Assembly: GCA_024226515.1 (NCBI GenBank)
Contig: JAAELQ010000116.1
Span: 1 to 64,000 of the forward strand
Direction: 5' to 3'
Source: a bacterium
Lineage (GTDB): Bacteria > Acidobacteriota > Polarisedimenticolia > Polarisedimenticolales > Polarisedimenticolaceae
Length of the DNA stretch: 64,000 nucleotides
In this document: positions 22,278 through 37,076 of the stretch, in pieces
How the letters are laid out: every line of letters begins with the position of its first letter
How positions within the stretch are numbered: the stretch's first letter is position 1
Position numbers and translations under genes: made by a program
The notes under the pieces: generated by a model
The model's input: only the letters and a program-made list of their open reading frames with translations
Told to the model about the DNA's origin: nothing
Databases searched by the model: none

Positions 22278-23393
22278 ATGCAGATTCCCGCAAACGAACT
22301 GGTCACCCGCCTCGAGTCCGGCGAGCCGGTCGAGGTCGTCGACATTCGCGAGACGAACGACTTCGACGCCTGGCATATTCACGGCAGCAGCAACCTGCCG
22401 GCATACGATGCCCTGCGGCAGAACGACCCCGGACCGCTGATGCGACAGGCCGAGAATCTGCCTCGCGGAAAGACCGTCGTCGCGGTCTGCAAGGGCGGGA
22501 TCATGTCGCAGCGCGCGGCCGAGCTGATGCAGTCGCTGGGCATCGACGCGCTGAGCCTGATCGGCGGGATTCGCGGCTGGGGCAGTGTGTGGACCGAGGC
22601 TGCGTTGCCCGAGGGGCTGGGCGGAACGCGGACCTTCGTGCAGGTCCGGCGCAACGGCAAGGGCTGCCTGTCGTACGTCTTCGGCGCGGACGGGGCGGGA
22701 GCCGTCGTCGACCCCAGCGTCGACACCGAGGCCTACCGTCGGATCGCGGAGCGCGAGGGGCTGCAGATCCATTACGTCTTCGAGACGCACGTCCACGCGG
22801 ACCACGTGTCGCGGGCGCGCGACCTGTGCCGCGAGACCGGCGCGACGCTCGTGATGGCTCCCAACCGGCGCGCCGTCTACCCCTTCACGCCGATGGAGGA
22901 CGGGCAGACGATCGACGTCGGCAGCATCCAGGTGCGCGCGTGCTTCACGCCGGGCCATACGACCGAGAGCACGTGTTACCTCGTCGGCGGCGAGGCGCTG
23001 CTGACGGGCGACACGCTGTTCATCGACGCGGTAGGGCGGCCCGATCTCGAGCAGGGCGACGCCGGCGCCGAGTCCGGCGCGCGCGCGCTGTACGACAGCC
23101 TGCATCGCAAGCTGCTGGGCGAGCTTGGCGACCTGGTGTTCTACCCCGCGCACTACGGCCGGCCGATCGGTTTCGACGGTGAGCCGCTCGGCTCGTCGTT
23201 GAGCGCCGCGCGCGACGGCATCGACCTGGTGGGCAAGGACGAGCCGGAGTTCGTCGCCTCGCTCGTCGGCCGGTTGGGCGTCAAGCCGGGCAATTTCGAA
23301 ACGATCGTCGCGATCAACGAGGGGCGCGAGAGCCTCGAAGAGATCAACCTGCTGGAGCTCGAGGCCGGACCGAACTGCTGCGCCGCCAAGTAG
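22278..23393 (+). CDS. Rhodanese-metallo-beta-lactamase fusion (persulfide dioxygenase-like)
   Basis: A 371-residue protein. Residues 1-108 form a rhodanese domain with catalytic Cys71 in VCKGGIMS. Residues 120-330 form a metallo-beta-lactamase domain with ETHVHADH (His171, His173, Asp175, His176), FTPGHTTEST and TGDTLFIDAVGRPDL. This is the ETHE1/persulfide dioxygenase arrangement of iron ligands. The family oxidises glutathione persulfide to sulfite and the rhodanese shuttles sulfane sulfur. Most bacterial fusions I know place the rhodanese after the MBL domain; here it is first. The C-terminus ends GPNCCAAK. The radical SAM gene follows after 14 nt, so they may share a transcript. Confidence 0.88.
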   Translation: MQIPANELVTRLESGEPVEVVDIRETNDFDAWHIHGSSNLPAYDALRQNDPGPLMRQAENLPRGKTVVAVCKGGIMSQRAAELMQSLGIDALSLIGGIRGWGSVWTEAALPEGLGGTRTFVQVRRNGKGCLSYVFGADGAGAVVDPSVDTEAYRRIAEREGLQIHYVFETHVHADHVSRARDLCRETGATLVMAPNRRAVYPFTPMEDGQTIDVGSIQVRACFTPGHTTESTCYLVGGEALLTGDTLFIDAVGRPDLEQGDAGAESGARALYDSLHRKLLGELGDLVFYPAHYGRPIGFDGEPLGSSLSAARDGIDLVGKDEPEFVASLVGRLGVKPGNFETIVAINEGRESLEEINLLELEAGPNCCAAK

Positions 23394-27237: not shown

Positions 27238-30200
27238 ATGACCGTCGTCATCCTCATGCTCGCGACGCTGGTCGGACTCCAAGCCCAGCAACCGCCGGAG
27301 GACGAGCCGACCCCCGTGGCCGTCGAGCGCCCCGAGCGCGAGCGAACACTCGTCGACGAGGTGCTGAAGGCCGACGACCCTTCGTTCGGCGGCTGGGAAA
27401 CTGAAGCGCTGAGCAGCGCCGCGAACGGTCGGCTGAAGAGCCTGGCGGCCTGGATCGCGAAGCCGGTCGGGGCCGAGACGCTGGCCGGTTTCATGACGCC
27501 CGGATTCGCCTGCACGGCGTTGCGCCCGGACGCGCTCGCGCCGGCGTTCGAGGACGACGTGTGGTCCGTCCGACGCTTCGAGGCGGCCGAGGGCGAGGGT
27601 GTCCTCGCGCCGAGAGACGCGGCCGGCCTGGCCGCCGTGCTGTCCGACCTGGCGGCGCCGCTGAAGGCGGCGGGCAAGCCGAAGGTCAAGTTCAAGACAC
27701 ACCGCGTCACGCGGGCCGAGGGCCACTACACGACGCGCGCCTTCCTGGAGGCCGAGTCCCACGGCGAGAACGACGGCGTCCAGATCAACGCGGACTGGGA
27801 GCTGACCTGGGCCTACCCGGACGGCGACGGCGGGCCGCCGTTGCTGAAGACGATTCGCCTCCTGCGCCACGAGGAGATCGACGTCCGCGCCGCGCACGGC
27901 AAGCTGTTCGTGGATCACACCGCCTCGGCGCTGGGAGGTCTGGAGACGTATCGCGACCTCGTGCTGCGCGGCGTGCTGCACTGGGTGGACCGCATCAGTC
28001 GCATCGATAACGTCTCGCTCTTCGGCCACGCGGGCATCGCGGTCGGCGACGTCGACGGAGACGGGCTCGAGGACCTGTACGTCTGCGACGAGGGCGGCCT
28101 GCCGAACCGTCTCTACCTGCAGCAGCCCGACGGCACGCTGAAGGACGCCTCCGCCGCGGCAGGCGTGGACTGGCTCGAGCGGACCTACTCGGCGCTGATC
28201 GTCGACCTCGACAACGACGGCGACCAGGACCTGGCCGTCGCGACGTATCCGCGGCTGTTGCTCGCGGAGAACGACGGCGCGGGGAAGTTCAAGCTGCGCG
28301 CGAAGATGGCCGTCGCGGAGGAGGCCTACTCGCTGTCGGCAGCGGACTACGACGGCGACGGGGATCTCGACCTCTACGCCTGCACCTACGGCGGCCGTGG
28401 TCCCGGCGCGGCCGGAGAAGATCAGCTGCGCGACGAGGACGCCGCGGTCGGCGTGCCCGTGCCGTACCACGACGCCAACAACGGGGCGCCGAACGCGCTG
28501 CTGCGCAACGACGGAGACTTTCGCTTCGTCGACGCGACGGAGGGGTCGGGTCTCGACACGAACAATATGCGCTTCAGCTTCGCCGCGTCGTGGGAGGACT
28601 ACGACAACGACGGCGATGCAGATCTCTACGTGGCCAACGATTTCGGCCGTAACAGCCTGTTTCGCAACGACGGCGGGAAGTTCGTCGATGTCGCGGCCGA
28701 GGCGGGGGTCGAGGACATCGCGACGGGGATGTCGGTCTCGTGGGGCGACTACGATCGCGACGGCTGGATCGATCTCTACGTCGGCAACATGTACTCCAGC
28801 GCGGGCAACCGCATCGCGTTTCAGCGCAACTTCGGGCCGGGGCTGACGAACGAAGCCGTGACCCACCTGCAGCGTACCGCGCGCGGCAACACGCTGTTCG
28901 CCAACCAGGGCGACGGCACGTTCCGCGACGTCAGCGACGAGTCGGGTGCGACGATGGGGCGCTGGGCCTGGTCGTCGAACTTCGCGGACCTCAACAACGA
29001 CGGCTGGCTCGATCTCGTCGTGGCCAACGGTTTTCTCACGGGGGACGCCGACGCGGCAGACCTCTGAAGCTTCTTCTGGCGACAGGTCGTGTCGCAAACG
29101 CCGGTCGAGAACGAGCCCGTGGACGAGTACCAGGCGGGCTGGGACGCCACGATGCGCCTGGTGCACCAGGGGCGCTCGTGGAGCGGCCACGAGAAGAACT
29201 GCGCCTTCCTCAACGACCGCAACGGTCGATTCGCCGACGTCTCGTCGGCTTCGGGGCTGAATTTCGACGACGACGGGCGCGGCGTCGCCGTCGTGGACTG
29301 GGATCACGACGGCGATCTCGACCTGTGGCTGCGCAACCGCACCGCGCCGCGGCTGCGGCTGATGCTGAACCAGACCGCGGGCGCCGCCACGGGCAGCTTC
29401 GTCGCGTTTCGACTACGCGGGACGGCGGTCAATCGCGACGCGATCGGCGCGCGCGTGGAGCTCGACCTCGCGGGTGGCCGCCCGGCGCTGGCGCGCAGTC
29501 TCTACGCCGGCGAAGGTTTCCGTTCGCAGTCCAGCAAGTGGCTGCACTTCGGCCTGGCCGAAGGCGACGTGGTCGAGCGCATCCGCGTCCGCTGGCCCGG
29601 CGGCGCGTCGGAGACGTTCCCCGCGGTCGAGGCCGGTCAGCGTTACGTCTTGGTCCAGGGCACGGGCGAGGCCGAGACCTGGGCCCGACCCGAGCGCGAA
29701 CTGGGGCTCGTGCCCGGCGTTTCGGACCTGCCCGAGTCGAGCCGCAAGGGTCGAGTCGTCGTCGCGCACCGCATCCCGGCGCTGACGCTGCGCTACGAGG
29801 ATTACCTGCCAGGGCCGCCGCAGGTGCTGGAGCCGTCGGGCGAGCCGACGCTGGTCAACCTGTGGGCCAGCTGGTGCACGCCCTGCGTGACCGAGCTGCG
29901 CGAGTTGACGGACCATGCCGAGGAGCTCCGCAAAGCGGGCCTGCGCGTCGTGGCCCTGACGGTCGAGGGCGTGGACGACGACGACACGACACCGCGCGAC
30001 GCCGCGAACCTGCTGGAGCAGATCGGTTACCCGTTCGAGTCCGGCGTGGCCACGACGGAGTTGCTCGATCGGCTCGAGCTGTACCAGGAGACGCTGTACG
30101 GCCGCGTGCCGGAGTTCGGGGTTCCGCTGAGCCTGTTGCTCGACCGGCAGGGGCGAGTGGCGATGATCTACCGCGGCGCGGTCTCGAAACAGCAACTGCT

Positions 30201-31146
30201 CGAGGACGTACGCCTGCTCGATGCCTCGAGCGACGTGCTGCGCGAGGCGTCTCTGCCCTTCGCCGGACGCTGGTACACGCCCCATCCCTCCGTCGACACG
30301 TTCTTGCCGATCGTGGCCAAGATGTTCGTCGAGCGCGATGCCGAGGACGCGGTCCGCTTCCTGCAACTCTCGGCCGAGCGGCAGGAAGCTCGACTGACCG
30401 CCGAGAGCGGCGCAGAGGACAAGGCTGCGCTGGCCGACACGCATTACAGCCTGGCCACCGCACTGGCCGACGAACAGCGACTTCGTGACGCCGTCCCGCA
30501 CTACGTGCGGACGTTGCAGCTCTCGCGCGACCACCTCGATGCGCACATCGGACTGGGCGTTGCCATGTCCACGCTGGGCGACCTGGCTCGCGCGATTCCT
30601 GTCCTCGAGCGAGCCCTCGAGCTCAGTCCGGACAACGCCCGGGTACTCAACAACCTCGGCCTGGCCTATCACATCCGTGGCGATGTGCCGCGCGCGATGC
30701 AGCACTATCGCCGATCGATCGAGCTTGATCCCGATTCCGAGGAGGTGCACTACAACCTGGGCCAGGCGTTCTTGATGAGCGGGCAGGCACAATCGGCCAA
30801 GGCGGAGTTTCTCGAGGCGCTGCGCATCGATCCCGAATCGCTGGGCGCGTTGACGGATCTGGCGTGGATTCTGGCCACCCATCCGGACGCCGGGCTGCGC
30901 GACGCCGAGGAGGCGATTCGTCTCGCGTCCCGTGCGGCGGAACTGACCGCGCACGAAGACGCCACGATTCTGGACACGCTGGCCGCCGCGTTCGCCGAGG
31001 CGGCCCGCTTCGACCTCGCGGTCGAGACGGCGCGAAACGCCCTGAAACGCGCTCAGCAGGACCGAGACCCGGAGCTCGTCCGCTACGTGCGCCTGCGACT
31101 CAGTCTGTACGAGCAATCCCGGCCCTATCGCGAGCCGCGACACTGA
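27238..31146 (+). CDS. FG-GAP/UnbV (CRTAC1-like) - TlpA - TPR protein with in-frame UGA (probable selenocysteine 610)
   Basis: Read straight through the TGA at 29065-29067, this is one 1302-residue protein. It has signal peptide MTVVILMLATLVGLQAQ and an N-terminal domain of unknown type (about 20-250). FG-GAP/VCBS repeats follow (260-700) with DxDxDGxxD Ca-binding loops such as DVDGDGLEDL and DYDGDGDLDL. An ASPIC/UnbV domain lies at about 720-800 (NRDAIGARVELDL). A thioredoxin/TlpA-like domain (about 840-1000) has Cys880-Cys883 in WASWCTPC, and TPRs run from about 1040-1290. The codons on either side of the TGA read AADL-TGA-SFFWRQVVSQTP in one frame, with no frame change. The coding character continues without a gap, so a second gene from the GTG at 29089 would begin in mid-domain. 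A SECIS-like hairpin follows. I infer Sec at the TGA. Confidence 0.8.
29065..29100 (+). promoter_or_regulatory. UGA codon and bacterial SECIS-like hairpin
   Basis: The TGA at 29065-29067 is followed after 11 nt by GCGACA (29079-29084), loop GGTCG (29085-29089) and TGTCGC (29090-29095). This is a perfect 6-bp stem. The apical loop begins 17 nt after the UGA. E. coli fdhF has about 18 nt and a GGUCU loop, so both spacing and the GGUC loop agree with the known bacterial SECIS that SelB binds. The flanking codons still encode a sensible peptide. Confidence 0.75.
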
Positions 31147-33574: not shown

Positions 33575-34804
33575 ATGTCTAGTCGAGTCATTCTCATCGA
33601 TACCGATCCCCGCGGGCTGGAGTCGACGGCGTTTCTGCTGGAAGAGCAGGGACTCGACCCGGTCTGCGCGCGGACGTTCCAGCAGATCGATCGCGCGCTG
33701 GCGGGCCACGAGGACCAAGTCGTGGTGATCGAGCCCGTGCTCGAGGGTATCGACGGCTTCGAGCTCTGCCGGGCCGTGCGCAAGGTGTACAACGCCTCGC
33801 CTCCGACGGTGCTGCTGGCGTCGTCGAAGATCCGCGGGGAAGCGCACCGCCGCCGCGCCGAGGATGTCGGGGCGCACGCGTTCCTCGAGCGCCCGGCCCA
33901 CGACGACGAGCTGGTGCAGGCGCTCCGCACGGTCCTCACGCAGAGAGAGGCCGCCGCCGCCGCGCCGGCCGTCGGTGTGCTGCCGCGAAGGCGTCCCGCA
34001 TGGGTTCCGCTGGCGGCGAGTGTTGTCGGAATCGCCGCAGGCCTGGGGCTCGGATACCACTTCTTCCACACCACGCCCCCGGTTCCCGCAGCCCAACGTA
34101 GCTTTCTCGCGTCCGGCGGGTTCTCGCTCGAGACGGCTCCCGATCTGCCCGGACTCGGCGTGCCCGTGATCGGCTACGTGGCCGAGCTCGACGTCGCGAC
34201 CTCCGAGCCGGGCGCCCCGAGACCGTCGCCGCCGCCACGGCCGACCAAGCGGCAGGCCGTCACGCCGCCGCCACCCGAGAAAGCGGTCGCCGCTGCTCGA
34301 CAGCCGAGCCCGGCAGCGCCCGCCGCCGTGGTCGCGAACGAGACGATCGAGGATCTCGAGGCGGCCCACGTGCCCGGCCTGGACCTTGCCCTGCCCGAAA
34401 TGCCGGTCGAGGGCGGCGCAGTCGCCGAGGGCACGACGGACGAAGCGCCTCTGTGGACGCTGGAGATCGGTGCTCAGCCGGGGGCGGCGCCGTCTTCTGT
34501 CGAGGCCCAGGTGGCTCGCGTTCCGGACGTCGAACCGCGGTTGATCGCATCGAGCCGTGTCGCGCCGGTCTATCCGTACTCGGCGCGCCGCCTGCGCGCC
34601 GAGGGACAGGTCGTGCTGCGCGCGCGGGTCCTGACCGACGGCACGTTGTCGGAGGTCGAGGTCGTCAAGGAGCCCGGGCGGCACCTCGGCCTGGGCCGGG
34701 CGGCCCTGGACGCCGTTCGTCAATGGCGCTACGAGCCCGCGACGAGCGCCGGAACTCCGGTTGAATGGCCGATCACGATCCAGGTCGACTTCAAGCGTCG
34801 TTGA
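33575..34804 (+). CDS. Pseudo-receiver - transmembrane - TonB C-terminal domain fusion
   Basis: A 409-residue protein starting at the ATG at 33575, with TATGTT (33557-33562) 12 nt upstream. Residues 1-125 resemble a response-regulator receiver (VILIDTDPRGLES, then VVVIEPVLEGIDGFELCRAV). The phospho-acceptor Asp is Glu (IEP), and the conserved Lys before Pro is Arg (LERP), so it is probably not phosphorylated normally. A helix follows at about 145-165 (WVPLAASVVGIAAGLGLGYHFF), then a long Pro/Ala-rich linker spanning the periplasm. The last 85 residues are a TonB C-terminal domain, with VAPVYPYSARRLRAEGQV and LDAVRQWRYEPA. It may couple a cytoplasmic regulatory contact to outer-membrane transport; the fusion is unusual. 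No ExbBD genes are nearby. Confidence 0.8.
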   Translation: MSSRVILIDTDPRGLESTAFLLEEQGLDPVCARTFQQIDRALAGHEDQVVVIEPVLEGIDGFELCRAVRKVYNASPPTVLLASSKIRGEAHRRRAEDVGAHAFLERPAHDDELVQALRTVLTQREAAAAAPAVGVLPRRRPAWVPLAASVVGIAAGLGLGYHFFHTTPPVPAAQRSFLASGGFSLETAPDLPGLGVPVIGYVAELDVATSEPGAPRPSPPPRPTKRQAVTPPPPEKAVAAARQPSPAAPAAVVANETIEDLEAAHVPGLDLALPEMPVEGGAVAEGTTDEAPLWTLEIGAQPGAAPSSVEAQVARVPDVEPRLIASSRVAPVYPYSARRLRAEGQVVLRARVLTDGTLSEVEVVKEPGRHLGLGRAALDAVRQWRYEPATSAGTPVEWPITIQVDFKRR

Positions 34805-34826
34805 GCGTCGTCCGTCCGCCCGTCGC

Positions 34827-34832
34827 TATAAT
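34827..34832 (+). promoter_or_regulatory. Perfect -10 box TATAAT, leaderless promoter
   Basis: The consensus TATAAT ends 6 nt before the ATG at 34839 and no ribosome site intervenes. Transcription would begin at or within 2 nt of the start codon. It also fixes the start of the lipoprotein gene against longer in-frame alternatives. Confidence 0.6.
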
Positions 34833-34838
34833 CCACGC

Positions 34839-37076
34839 ATGAACGAGATTCGTCGCGGCGCGTTCCTGCTGTGCATCGTCGGAGTGACGGCGGCGCTATT
34901 CGTGGCCTGTTCGGGCGGCGACACGGGCGACCCCCGACCGGCGCCGGAGCGTGCGGACACGCAGCGTCCAGCCGGCCACGTGCGAATGGTCAACGAGCTG
35001 CGTCGCATCTCCGAGAACATGGACAGCTTCCCGTATCTCGGATCGGGGCTGGCCGATCGACTGACCCGGCGGCTGGCCGAGTTGCCGGCGGGCGCCCCGG
35101 CGGAAGAGCGCGCGAAGCTGCACCTCGCTCTGGGCGAGGCGCAGATGAACCAGGGGTTGCTGCGCCCCGCGATCGACAATCTCACGCAGGCCTACCGGCA
35201 GCTCCCCGACTCCTCGATCGAAGAGCTGTCGCAGGCGACGTTCAAGTTGGCCGTGGCCTACATGCGGCTCGGCGAGACGCAGAACTGCTGCAAGCGCAAC
35301 AACCCCGATAGCTGCATCCTACCCCTGCGCGGCGGCGGGGTGCACACGGATCAGGAGGGATCGAAGAACGCGATCCGCCACTTCTTCGAGCTGATGAACA
35401 ACACGCCGCCGGACAGCGACATGCACCTGGCGGCGCGCTGGCTGTTCAACGTGATGTACATGACGCTGGACAAGTACCCCGACTCGGTTCCCGAGCGGCT
35501 GCTGATCCCACCGGATGCGCTGGGGTCCGATTCCGGATTCCCGCGATTCAACAACGTCTCCAAGAAGCTCGGGCTGGACACGTTCAACCTCTCCGGTGGC
35601 GCGATCGTCGACGACTTCGACGGCGACGACGACCTGGACCTGGTCACCTCGACCTGGGACCCGCGCGGCCCAATCCACTTCTTCCGCAACAATGGCAATG
35701 GAACGTTCGCCGACGAAACGGGCGCTGCCGGGCTCGACGGGCTCTACGGAGGGCTGAATCTCAAGCCGACGGATTACGACAACGACGGGGATCTCGACGT
35801 GTTCGTCCTGCGGGGTGCGTGGCTCGGATCGTCGGGGAGGATTCCAAACTCTCTGCTGCGCAACAACGGCGACGGAACGTTCACCGACGTGACGTTCGAC
35901 TCCGGCCTGGGCGACGCGCACCGTGCCACGCAGGCCGGCGACTGGGCCGACTACGACAACGACGGTGACCTCGACCTGTTCGTCGGCAACGAATCGACGG
36001 AGGGCGACGACCACCCGTGCCAGTTGTTTCGCAACAACGGCGACGGGACGTTCACCGACGTCGCGCCAGAGGCCGGTGTCGATTACGTGGGCTACATCAA
36101 GGGCGTGACCTGGGGCGACTACGACGAAGATCGCGACGCGGACCTCTTCATCTCCGAGTACTTCGGAGAGAACCTACTGTTCCGCAACAACGGTGATGGC
36201 ACGTTCACCGACGTCGCGCCCCAGCTCGGCGTCACCCGTCCGCACTCCAGCTTTCCGACCTGGTTCTGGGATTATGACAACGACGGGCACCTCGATCTGT
36301 TCGTTGCGAGCTACACCGGCCGCGTGCAGCACATCGCCCGGCACTATCTCGGTCTGGAGCGAAACTACGAGATCGCGGCACTCTACCGCGGCGACGGGCG
36401 CGGCGGCTTCGTCGGCGTCGCGGAGACGAGCGGACTGGCGGTACCGATGCTGCCGATGGGATCGAATTACGGCGACATCGACAACGACGGATTCCTCGAC
36501 TTCTATCTCGGCACGGGCGACCCCTCGTACTGGAATCTGATGCCGAATCTGTTGTTCCACAATCGAGGTGGACAGCGCTTCGAGGATGTGTCGGTCGCGG
36601 CCGGCATGTCGAATCTGCAGAAGGGTCACTCGGTCGCATTCGCCGATCTCGACAGCGACGGCGACCTCGACGTGTTCGAGCAGATGGGCGGAGCGTACCC
36701 CGGAGACAAGTACGCGGACGCGCTCTACGAGAACCCCGGCTTCGGCAACCACCGGCTGACCGTCCAACTCGTCGGCACGCGCTCGAACCGTGCGGCGATC
36801 GGGGCGCGCATACACGCGCGCTTCGAGGGGCCGGAGGGCGAGCGATCCGTGTACCGCTGGGTCAACAGCGGCGGCAGCTTCGGCGGCAACCCGCTGCGCC
36901 AGACGCTGGGCCTCGGTGGCGCCGACCGTGTCGAGCGACTGGAGATCTTCTGGCCCATGAGCGGTGAGACCCAGGTGCTCGAGGACGTCGAGGCGGACCG
37001 CATGATCCGCGTCGTCGAGGGTGAGGCGGGCTACACCGTCGTCGAGCTGAAGCGGACGCGACTGGGAGCCGAGTGA
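34839..37076 (+). CDS. FG-GAP/UnbV (CRTAC1-like) lipoprotein
   Basis: A 745-residue protein. The ATG at 34839 yields MNEIRRGAFLLCIVGVTAALFVAC, a lipoprotein signal with lipobox FVAC. An N-terminal helical region (about 45-200) contains paired Cys (NCCKRNNPDSC). At least seven FG-GAP/VCBS repeats follow, with acidic loops DFDGDDDLDL, DYDNDGDLDV and DLDSDGDLDV. A C-terminal UnbV/ASPIC domain (about 640-720; VGTRSNRAAIGARIHARF) closes the protein. It is a surface beta-propeller of unknown ligand. It is a paralogue of the UGA-containing protein at 27238 but lacks the TlpA and TPR parts. The glycosylase gene overlaps its stop. Confidence 0.88.
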   Translation: MNEIRRGAFLLCIVGVTAALFVACSGGDTGDPRPAPERADTQRPAGHVRMVNELRRISENMDSFPYLGSGLADRLTRRLAELPAGAPAEERAKLHLALGEAQMNQGLLRPAIDNLTQAYRQLPDSSIEELSQATFKLAVAYMRLGETQNCCKRNNPDSCILPLRGGGVHTDQEGSKNAIRHFFELMNNTPPDSDMHLAARWLFNVMYMTLDKYPDSVPERLLIPPDALGSDSGFPRFNNVSKKLGLDTFNLSGGAIVDDFDGDDDLDLVTSTWDPRGPIHFFRNNGNGTFADETGAAGLDGLYGGLNLKPTDYDNDGDLDVFVLRGAWLGSSGRIPNSLLRNNGDGTFTDVTFDSGLGDAHRATQAGDWADYDNDGDLDLFVGNESTEGDDHPCQLFRNNGDGTFTDVAPEAGVDYVGYIKGVTWGDYDEDRDADLFISEYFGENLLFRNNGDGTFTDVAPQLGVTRPHSSFPTWFWDYDNDGHLDLFVASYTGRVQHIARHYLGLERNYEIAALYRGDGRGGFVGVAETSGLAVPMLPMGSNYGDIDNDGFLDFYLGTGDPSYWNLMPNLLFHNRGGQRFEDVSVAAGMSNLQKGHSVAFADLDSDGDLDVFEQMGGAYPGDKYADALYENPGFGNHRLTVQLVGTRSNRAAIGARIHARFEGPEGERSVYRWVNSGGSFGGNPLRQTLGLGGADRVERLEIFWPMSGETQVLEDVEADRMIRVVEGEAGYTVVELKRTRLGAE

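Follow-up and report, generated by a model that had tools for sequence, protein, structure and literature searches.

A recurrent in-frame UGA in a CRTAC1-like propeller protein fused to a TlpA-type domain: a probable selenoprotein family of Acidobacteriota, Planctomycetota and Verrucomicrobiota

Background

The closest described relatives of the propeller considered here are CRTAC1 (cartilage acidic protein 1, murine structure 9etn) and the bacterial CRTAC1-family or VCBS-UnbV proteins, and those of its C-terminal thioredoxin-like domain are the TlpA/ResA oxidoreductases. Both are joined in a single gene at positions 27238-31146 (+) of a 64,000-nucleotide stretch (hereafter the window) of contig JAAELQ010000116.1 from an Acidobacteriota assembly (GCA_024226515.1). 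This gene has an in-frame UGA at codon 610, which we propose to be a selenocysteine (Sec) codon. What sets the bacterial protein apart from CRTAC1 is the proposed Sec, the helical insert that surrounds it, and the additional TlpA and TPR domains. Its residues 867-983 match AhpC-TSA/Redoxin and TlpA/ResA chains and carry a CxxC motif as in TlpA/ResA oxidoreductases; unlike in the latter, the domain is fused behind a putatively Sec-bearing propeller or, in some relatives, encoded downstream of it.

A combination of Sec with TlpA-type redox chemistry has a precedent in the UGC-containing TlpA and other thioredoxin-fold selenoproteins listed in PMC13188914. There, as far as the listed entries go, Sec lies in the thioredoxin-like motif itself (UGC or UxxC), whereas in the window protein that motif contains only Cys, and the proposed Sec is located in the propeller without a CxxU or UxxC. 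Table 1 of the same source, a 2026 inventory of 119 prokaryotic selenoprotein families or subfamilies, holds no FG-GAP, VCBS, UnbV, ASPIC or CRTAC entry, in agreement with the preliminary description of this locus, which knew of no such selenoprotein. Titles and opening lines of abstracts in the open PMC literature likewise gave no FG-GAP, VCBS, UnbV or CRTAC1 selenoprotein, and a term search within PMC9312934 returned no match. PMC4807772 presents selenoprotein candidates from two planctomycetes, and one of these candidates may belong to the present family; in PMC12758564 a CRTAC1-family gene is mentioned next to hydrazine-synthase-like genes.

One reading frame spans the UGA

On the comparative evidence below, codon 610 is in all likelihood decoded as Sec, because the UGA and a hairpin behind it recur at the same site in three bacterial phyla. 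Sec insertion is supported by conservation of the frame, by the decoding machinery, by the co-occurrence of the two and by covariation in the stem. The fuller proposal, in which SelB and tRNA-Sec would insert a redox-active Sec into an exported CRTAC1-like propeller and a TlpA-type CxxC would recycle it, we consider probable. The features of the gene, all on the + strand, are as follows:

27238..31146, +, whole gene, 1302 residues with UGA 610 read through and a TGA terminator (translation)
27238..27288, +, hydrophobic N-terminus resembling a signal peptide (judged from the sequence by eye)
27910..29439 (bounds approximate), +, CRTAC1-like beta-propeller region with FG-GAP repeats, enclosing the UGA (Pfam, predicted structure)
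29065..29067, +, in-frame TGA, codon 610, proposed Sec codon (translation, homologue alignment)
29079..29095, +, hairpin resembling a selenocysteine insertion sequence (SECIS), stem 29079-29084 with 29090-29095, loop GGUCG at 29085-29089 (pairing, covariation)
29440..29646, +, UnbV/ASPIC domain, residues 735-803 (Pfam)
29836..30186, +, TlpA/ResA-like thioredoxin-fold domain (AhpC-TSA/Redoxin with WCTPC), residues 867-983 (Pfam, homologous chains)
29875..29886, +, CTPC motif, Cys880 and Cys883, proposed redox partner of Sec (sequence)
30538..30840, +, TPR repeats, residues ~1101-1201 (Pfam)

The preliminary description had seen two neighbouring open frames parted by a single TGA, and translation bears this out: 27238-31146 is one continuous frame of 1302 residues in which TGA 29065-29067 is the sole internal stop, with no change of frame. 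The second frame had been begun at 29089, which is merely the first GTG past the TGA in the list of open reading frames (ORFs) and is unsupported as a gene start. Pfam gives the domain order as FG-GAP repeats, UnbV/ASPIC, AhpC-TSA/Redoxin with WCTPC, and TPRs. An FG-GAP propeller followed by an UnbV/ASPIC domain is the arrangement of the CRTAC1 or FG-GAP-UnbV family, and residues 867-983, a thioredoxin-like domain with CxxC, belong with TlpA/ResA; this C-terminal domain may serve as a thiol-disulfide exchange module. In the predicted structure (predicted local distance difference test, pLDDT, 92.6; predicted template modelling score, pTM, 0.94) the fold is CRTAC1-like, a beta-propeller plus UnbV/ASPIC, followed by the TlpA and TPR domains. 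The protein is probably exported.

If UGA 610 were a true stop, the product would be a short propeller and the remainder a second protein or a part regulated by termination. Mechanical ORF calling does cut the gene at this codon. Nevertheless, the earlier view that a single CRTAC1-type domain spans the UGA holds in both Pfam and the predicted structure, so that a stop would split the propeller; moreover, non-TGA homologues cross the site in one frame and the downstream frame still aligns to UnbV, TlpA and TPR domains. We therefore regard termination at codon 610 as highly improbable.

The UGA recurs at the homologous codon

Searching 41 genomes with the read-through protein yielded further long matches with one TGA. 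In an alignment of 21 homologous genes the TGA falls in the same column in 14, the others having Ser, Glu and Gly (one each) or a gap (four). The source genome itself holds two more TGA paralogues, on contigs C166 (L040) and C303 (L043). It also has the Ser paralogue counted above (contig C9, L039), whose hairpin stem contains a mismatch.

Next, 396 genomes of the phylum were searched with a profile of the site region, and only the stronger places were fetched. Matches were obtained in 199 of these genomes, many of them weak ones to other FG-GAP proteins; TGA occupies the Sec column in at least 47 of the 396, from 27 genera, and Cys, read from the DNA, occupies it in three genes of two genomes. 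The sites fall into four motif groups: DLUSFFWRQVV (group 1), KDTUSLFWRHVVA (group 2), PDGUTCLWRAVV (group 3) and DDLULPYILSAVAH (group 4). In one group-3 TGA gene (L119, G337:C44) the frame seems broken soon after the site, perhaps by an assembly frameshift. NCBIfam release 20 gave nothing above cut-off for the whole window protein among the matches listed (25 of 30), and no match for the Sec region of groups 2, 3 and 4.

Beyond the phylum, a 35-base DNA pattern including the TGA, scanned over one genome per species, found at least 117 stretches, of which those listed comprise 43 from Planctomycetota, 40 from Verrucomicrobiota, 30 from Acidobacteriota and 4 without a phylum. Of the 117 listed, 108 can be aligned with the window protein along 480 residues or more, and nine were removed by a length or duplicate filter. 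TGA at this codon thus exceeds chance, as judged from the column shared across homologues, and the frame is conserved on both sides of the UGA in these homologues, as expected of a bacterial selenoprotein. An alignment of homologues had been put forward as a check on the Sec reading, and it came out in its favour: many homologues have further UGA codons with hairpins at the same site, and some have Cys.

The source is a draft assembly in 320 contigs, which might suggest a sequencing error or a single broken gene. Given the two TGA paralogues of the same genome and TGA at the same codon in at least 46 other genomes, the likelihood of such an artefact is negligible, and this recurrence effectively refutes it.

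The genome encodes selenocysteine machinery

The source genome (6.5 Mb) was searched for the components of Sec decoding, another check that had been suggested at the outset, and all four were recovered above their cut-offs: tRNA-Sec at 70.8 bits (cut-off 47, with the next match, at 46.8, falling below), SelB at 326.9 (cut-off 242.25), SelD at 321.2 (cut-off 125) and SelA at 530 (cut-off 267.9). Hence Sec decoding of some UGA codons is to be expected in this organism. SelD belongs to a known selenoprotein family with a cytosolic function, and the SelD of this genome carries an in-frame TGA of its own, in GGUAGKT, a position which we take to be the usual Sec site of that protein. The window gene resembles it in that both carry an in-frame TGA and sit in a genome equipped with the whole Sec machinery.

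We further compared the occurrence of tRNA-Sec in a sample of 78 genomes, made up of 47 in which TGA is present, 20 that have the complete motif without TGA, and 11 with more remote matches that were left uncounted. At a threshold of 60 bits, chosen after seeing a gap between 60.8 and 55.2, tRNA-Sec is present in 42/47 TGA genomes versus 8/20 with the motif but no TGA. For the other two phyla, 38 genomes with a TGA match were reached via 40 of the DNA-pattern loci; tRNA-Sec scores at least 60 bits in 25 of them and 53.9 to 57.7 bits in three more.

A covarying hairpin follows the UGA

The window hairpin consists of six pairs, 29079-29084 with 29090-29095, closing the GGUCG loop. With the T of the TGA numbered 0, pair 17-27 links an Arg codon, through its third base, with the opening base of a codon further on. 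Among the 147 distinct TGA sequences, the combinations at base 17 are G with a following Ser (56) or Pro (28), A with Ser (21), C with Ala (25) and T with Thr (10). These combinations all pair, and seven sequences depart from them. At pair 19-25, A-U accompanies Gln or His...Val in 130 sequences and G-C accompanies Arg...Ala in 15, with two exceptions. After correction, these two are the top covarying column pairs of all, and the inner five pairs are intact in 128/147 TGA sequences as against 1/18 without TGA.

Most of the 147 sequences were picked by the DNA pattern, which constrains stem positions 15, 16, 18, 19, 25 and 28 and leaves 17, 26, 27, 29 and 30 free. For this reason we recounted on genes found by the protein profile. 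All six pairs form in 37/49 TGA genes versus 1/23 non-TGA genes that share the peptide register, and pair 17-27 forms in 47 of the 49, a level reached in none of 2000 shuffles. Paired cells amount to 90% in register and to 21-68% when the partner is slid by 1 to 3 bases. The 49 take in group-3 genes, whose hairpin lies in another register and lacks the GGTC loop, which is accordingly not common to all four groups. By eye, compensating changes are visible in group 3 (GGGCUGU/ACAGCCC, GGGCCGU/ACGGCCC, GGGUUGC/GCAACCC) and, around GGUC, in group 4 (GCGC/GCGC, GUGC/GCAC). The gene family thus has a SECIS-like hairpin, conserved by covariation, shortly after the UGA, as do bacterial selenoprotein genes.

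Homologues without the UGA and the weight of the evidence

A protein-database search with the site region retrieved 674 proteins, of which 120 listed, full-length ones were examined. This search favours non-TGA forms because its length filter drops the 609-residue pieces cut at the TGA. The 120 have Asn (55), Ser (27), Glu (7), Ala (7), Asp (5), Cys (4), Gly (3), Leu (2), Arg (1), Gln (1) or Met (1) at the site, or a gap (7); none has Trp, and none of the source names listed for the site-region matches bears a selenoprotein label. Exchange between Sec and Cys therefore occurs but is rare (4/120 listed proteins and, in the DNA survey of the phylum, three genes of two genomes). Unrelated residues at the site had been named beforehand as an outcome that would speak against Sec; most non-TGA homologues, with Asn or Ser, do fit that description, but Cys also occurs. 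As Asn and Ser far outnumber Cys, a redox residue appears dispensable in the family as a whole. Since non-TGA genes (Asn, Ser and others) for which DNA was available mostly lack the hairpin, and non-TGA proteins mostly lack the CxxC, such members would stand outside the Sec/redox state, and the frequency of the Asn and Ser forms suggests that the same scaffold also exists in a non-redox form.

Several observations weigh against the proposal and have to be set beside the above. Asn and Ser greatly exceed Cys among the listed homologues. Five TGA genomes, drafts of 50 to 780 contigs, have no clear tRNA-Sec, and neither do 10 of the 38 Planctomycetota and Verrucomicrobiota drafts at the family cut-off; conversely, the eight genomes noted above have tRNA-Sec with only non-TGA members. 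The 42 nucleotides after the window UGA fold no better than shuffles, although the 23-nucleotide hairpin by itself, picked after the fact, gives a z of -3.2. Under synonymous recoding, 11/57 TGA sites and 1/28 others rank among the best 10 of 200, and the median ranks, 44 and 92.5 respectively, do not separate the two sets clearly. Because folding energies fail to make this separation, the SECIS argument rests on covariation; the folding tests are neutral on Sec insertion.

A further alternative is that the UGA is read through with another amino acid, by near-cognate readthrough or local reassignment. UGA readthrough is generally common, and the assignment of Sec to residue 610 comes from comparison of sequences rather than from the protein. 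Yet UGA is also a stop here, because the same gene terminates with TGA; the genome has the Sec machinery, a covarying hairpin follows the codon, and Cys is found at the site where Trp is absent among the listed proteins. We accordingly hold this alternative to be very unlikely, and the decoding of UGA 610 as Sec, as proposed earlier for this locus, is upheld by the machinery, the recurrent TGA and the covarying hairpin.

The TlpA-type domain as a candidate redox partner

The preliminary description had also pointed to the fused WCTPC domain as a possible redox partner. CxxC is present in 158/165 TGA proteins, 11/114 with another residue and 2/3 Cys proteins (the fourth Cys row of the table is the query itself), a raw count that omits rows in which no TlpA columns were aligned (23 with TGA and 34 others), which lessens its force. 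After dereplication at 90% the figures are 114/121, 10/100 and 2/3. Many non-TGA proteins retain a recognisable TlpA domain minus the first Cys or both.

Shared ancestry inflates such counts, and the association was hence also examined on trees. A first tree, built without the Sec and TlpA columns, has at least 14 changes of TGA state and 16 of CxxC state; its seven well-supported independent pairs give 4.1 changes in the same direction versus 0.1 in the opposite one (median p 0.125). On a second, more carefully built tree with 136 rows, eight pairs yield 3.1 versus 0.2 (median p 0.25).

Groups 3 and 4 have the TGA but no fused TlpA. A separate TlpA-like ORF lay near four of the first six group-4 loci, and therefore all 17 group-4 loci, from 21 strong TGA genes in 148 genomes of one class, were tested (174 kb in total). 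The controls were 23 loci of non-TGA relatives (230 kb), six of them close relatives and the remainder FG-GAP genes of greater distance. Of the group-4 loci, 13/17 have a same-strand TlpA-like ORF downstream, including 9/11 that had not prompted the idea, versus 0/23 controls. The matched stretch has CxxC in 12 of the 13, the exception being a weak match (L276), and two of the four group-4 loci without such an ORF end about 1 kb past the site. In the two group-4 clusters scanned with Pfam (within L272-L288), an acyltransferase (PF01553) lies between the propeller and the TlpA gene.

These data have to be read against the possibility that Sec is inserted but not recycled by TlpA, serving instead to bind a metal or substrate or in some other role, with CxxC co-occurring by descent. 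In its favour, the tree-aware tests point in the same direction as the counts but fall short of significance, CxxC is missing in 7/121 TGA proteins and present in 10/100 others, and the surroundings of three group-3 TGA genes, when tested, yielded no separate TlpA-like ORF. Against it stand the strong skew in the dereplicated counts, the independent changes leaning one way, and the downstream TlpA-like genes of group 4. We consider this alternative rather unlikely, albeit clearly more credible than the others raised here, and take a Sec-TlpA relay as the likely arrangement. The suggestion of the fused WCTPC domain as partner thus gains in probability from its correlated loss and from the separate TlpA-like gene of unfused propellers.

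In the relay, SelB and tRNA-Sec would insert Sec at UGA 610 via the hairpin just downstream; the Sec on the propeller would act as a redox centre reacting with an oxidised substrate; and the fused TlpA-type CxxC would reduce it again. Where TlpA is not fused, this role would fall to the separate TlpA-like protein whose gene lies downstream, whereas members with Asn, Ser or other residues would have no redox activity at the site. That an oxidised substrate held by the propeller is what gets reduced is a tentative guess, guided by the nature of the partner, to which we would not commit ourselves.

Genomic neighbourhood

Nine ORFs near the gene were scanned with Pfam, five of them without a match, and none gives a clue to the substrate. 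A protein with rhodanese and metallo-beta-lactamase domains is encoded a few kb upstream (22278-23390, +). The downstream ORFs with matches encode a histidine kinase, a TonB-C protein and another FG-GAP/UnbV protein; the last of these (34761-37073, +) begins ~3.6 kb downstream and has no internal stops. Across 128 TGA loci no flanking gene is widely shared. The commonest flanking ORF cluster occurs at 16 of them (L257 and 15 others) and is represented by a second long FG-GAP protein.

Implications

Because ORF calling halves these genes at the UGA, a widespread family could easily have been hidden or misannotated in three phyla, and the phyla that carry the TGA genes are environmentally common. 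If the proposal is correct, Sec would occur in a CRTAC1-type beta-propeller, a type missing from the 2026 inventory of 119 families, and FG-GAP/UnbV proteins would gain a testable redox function. On balance we lean towards a large, hitherto overlooked class of selenoenzymes shared by Acidobacteriota, Planctomycetota and Verrucomicrobiota, in which a catalytic Sec in the helical insert of the propeller, and thus not within a thioredoxin-type fold, would be recharged by a fused or adjoining TlpA. Its members would preserve an evolutionary record in which Sec, the RNA hairpin and the CxxC of the partner tend to be jointly present or absent.

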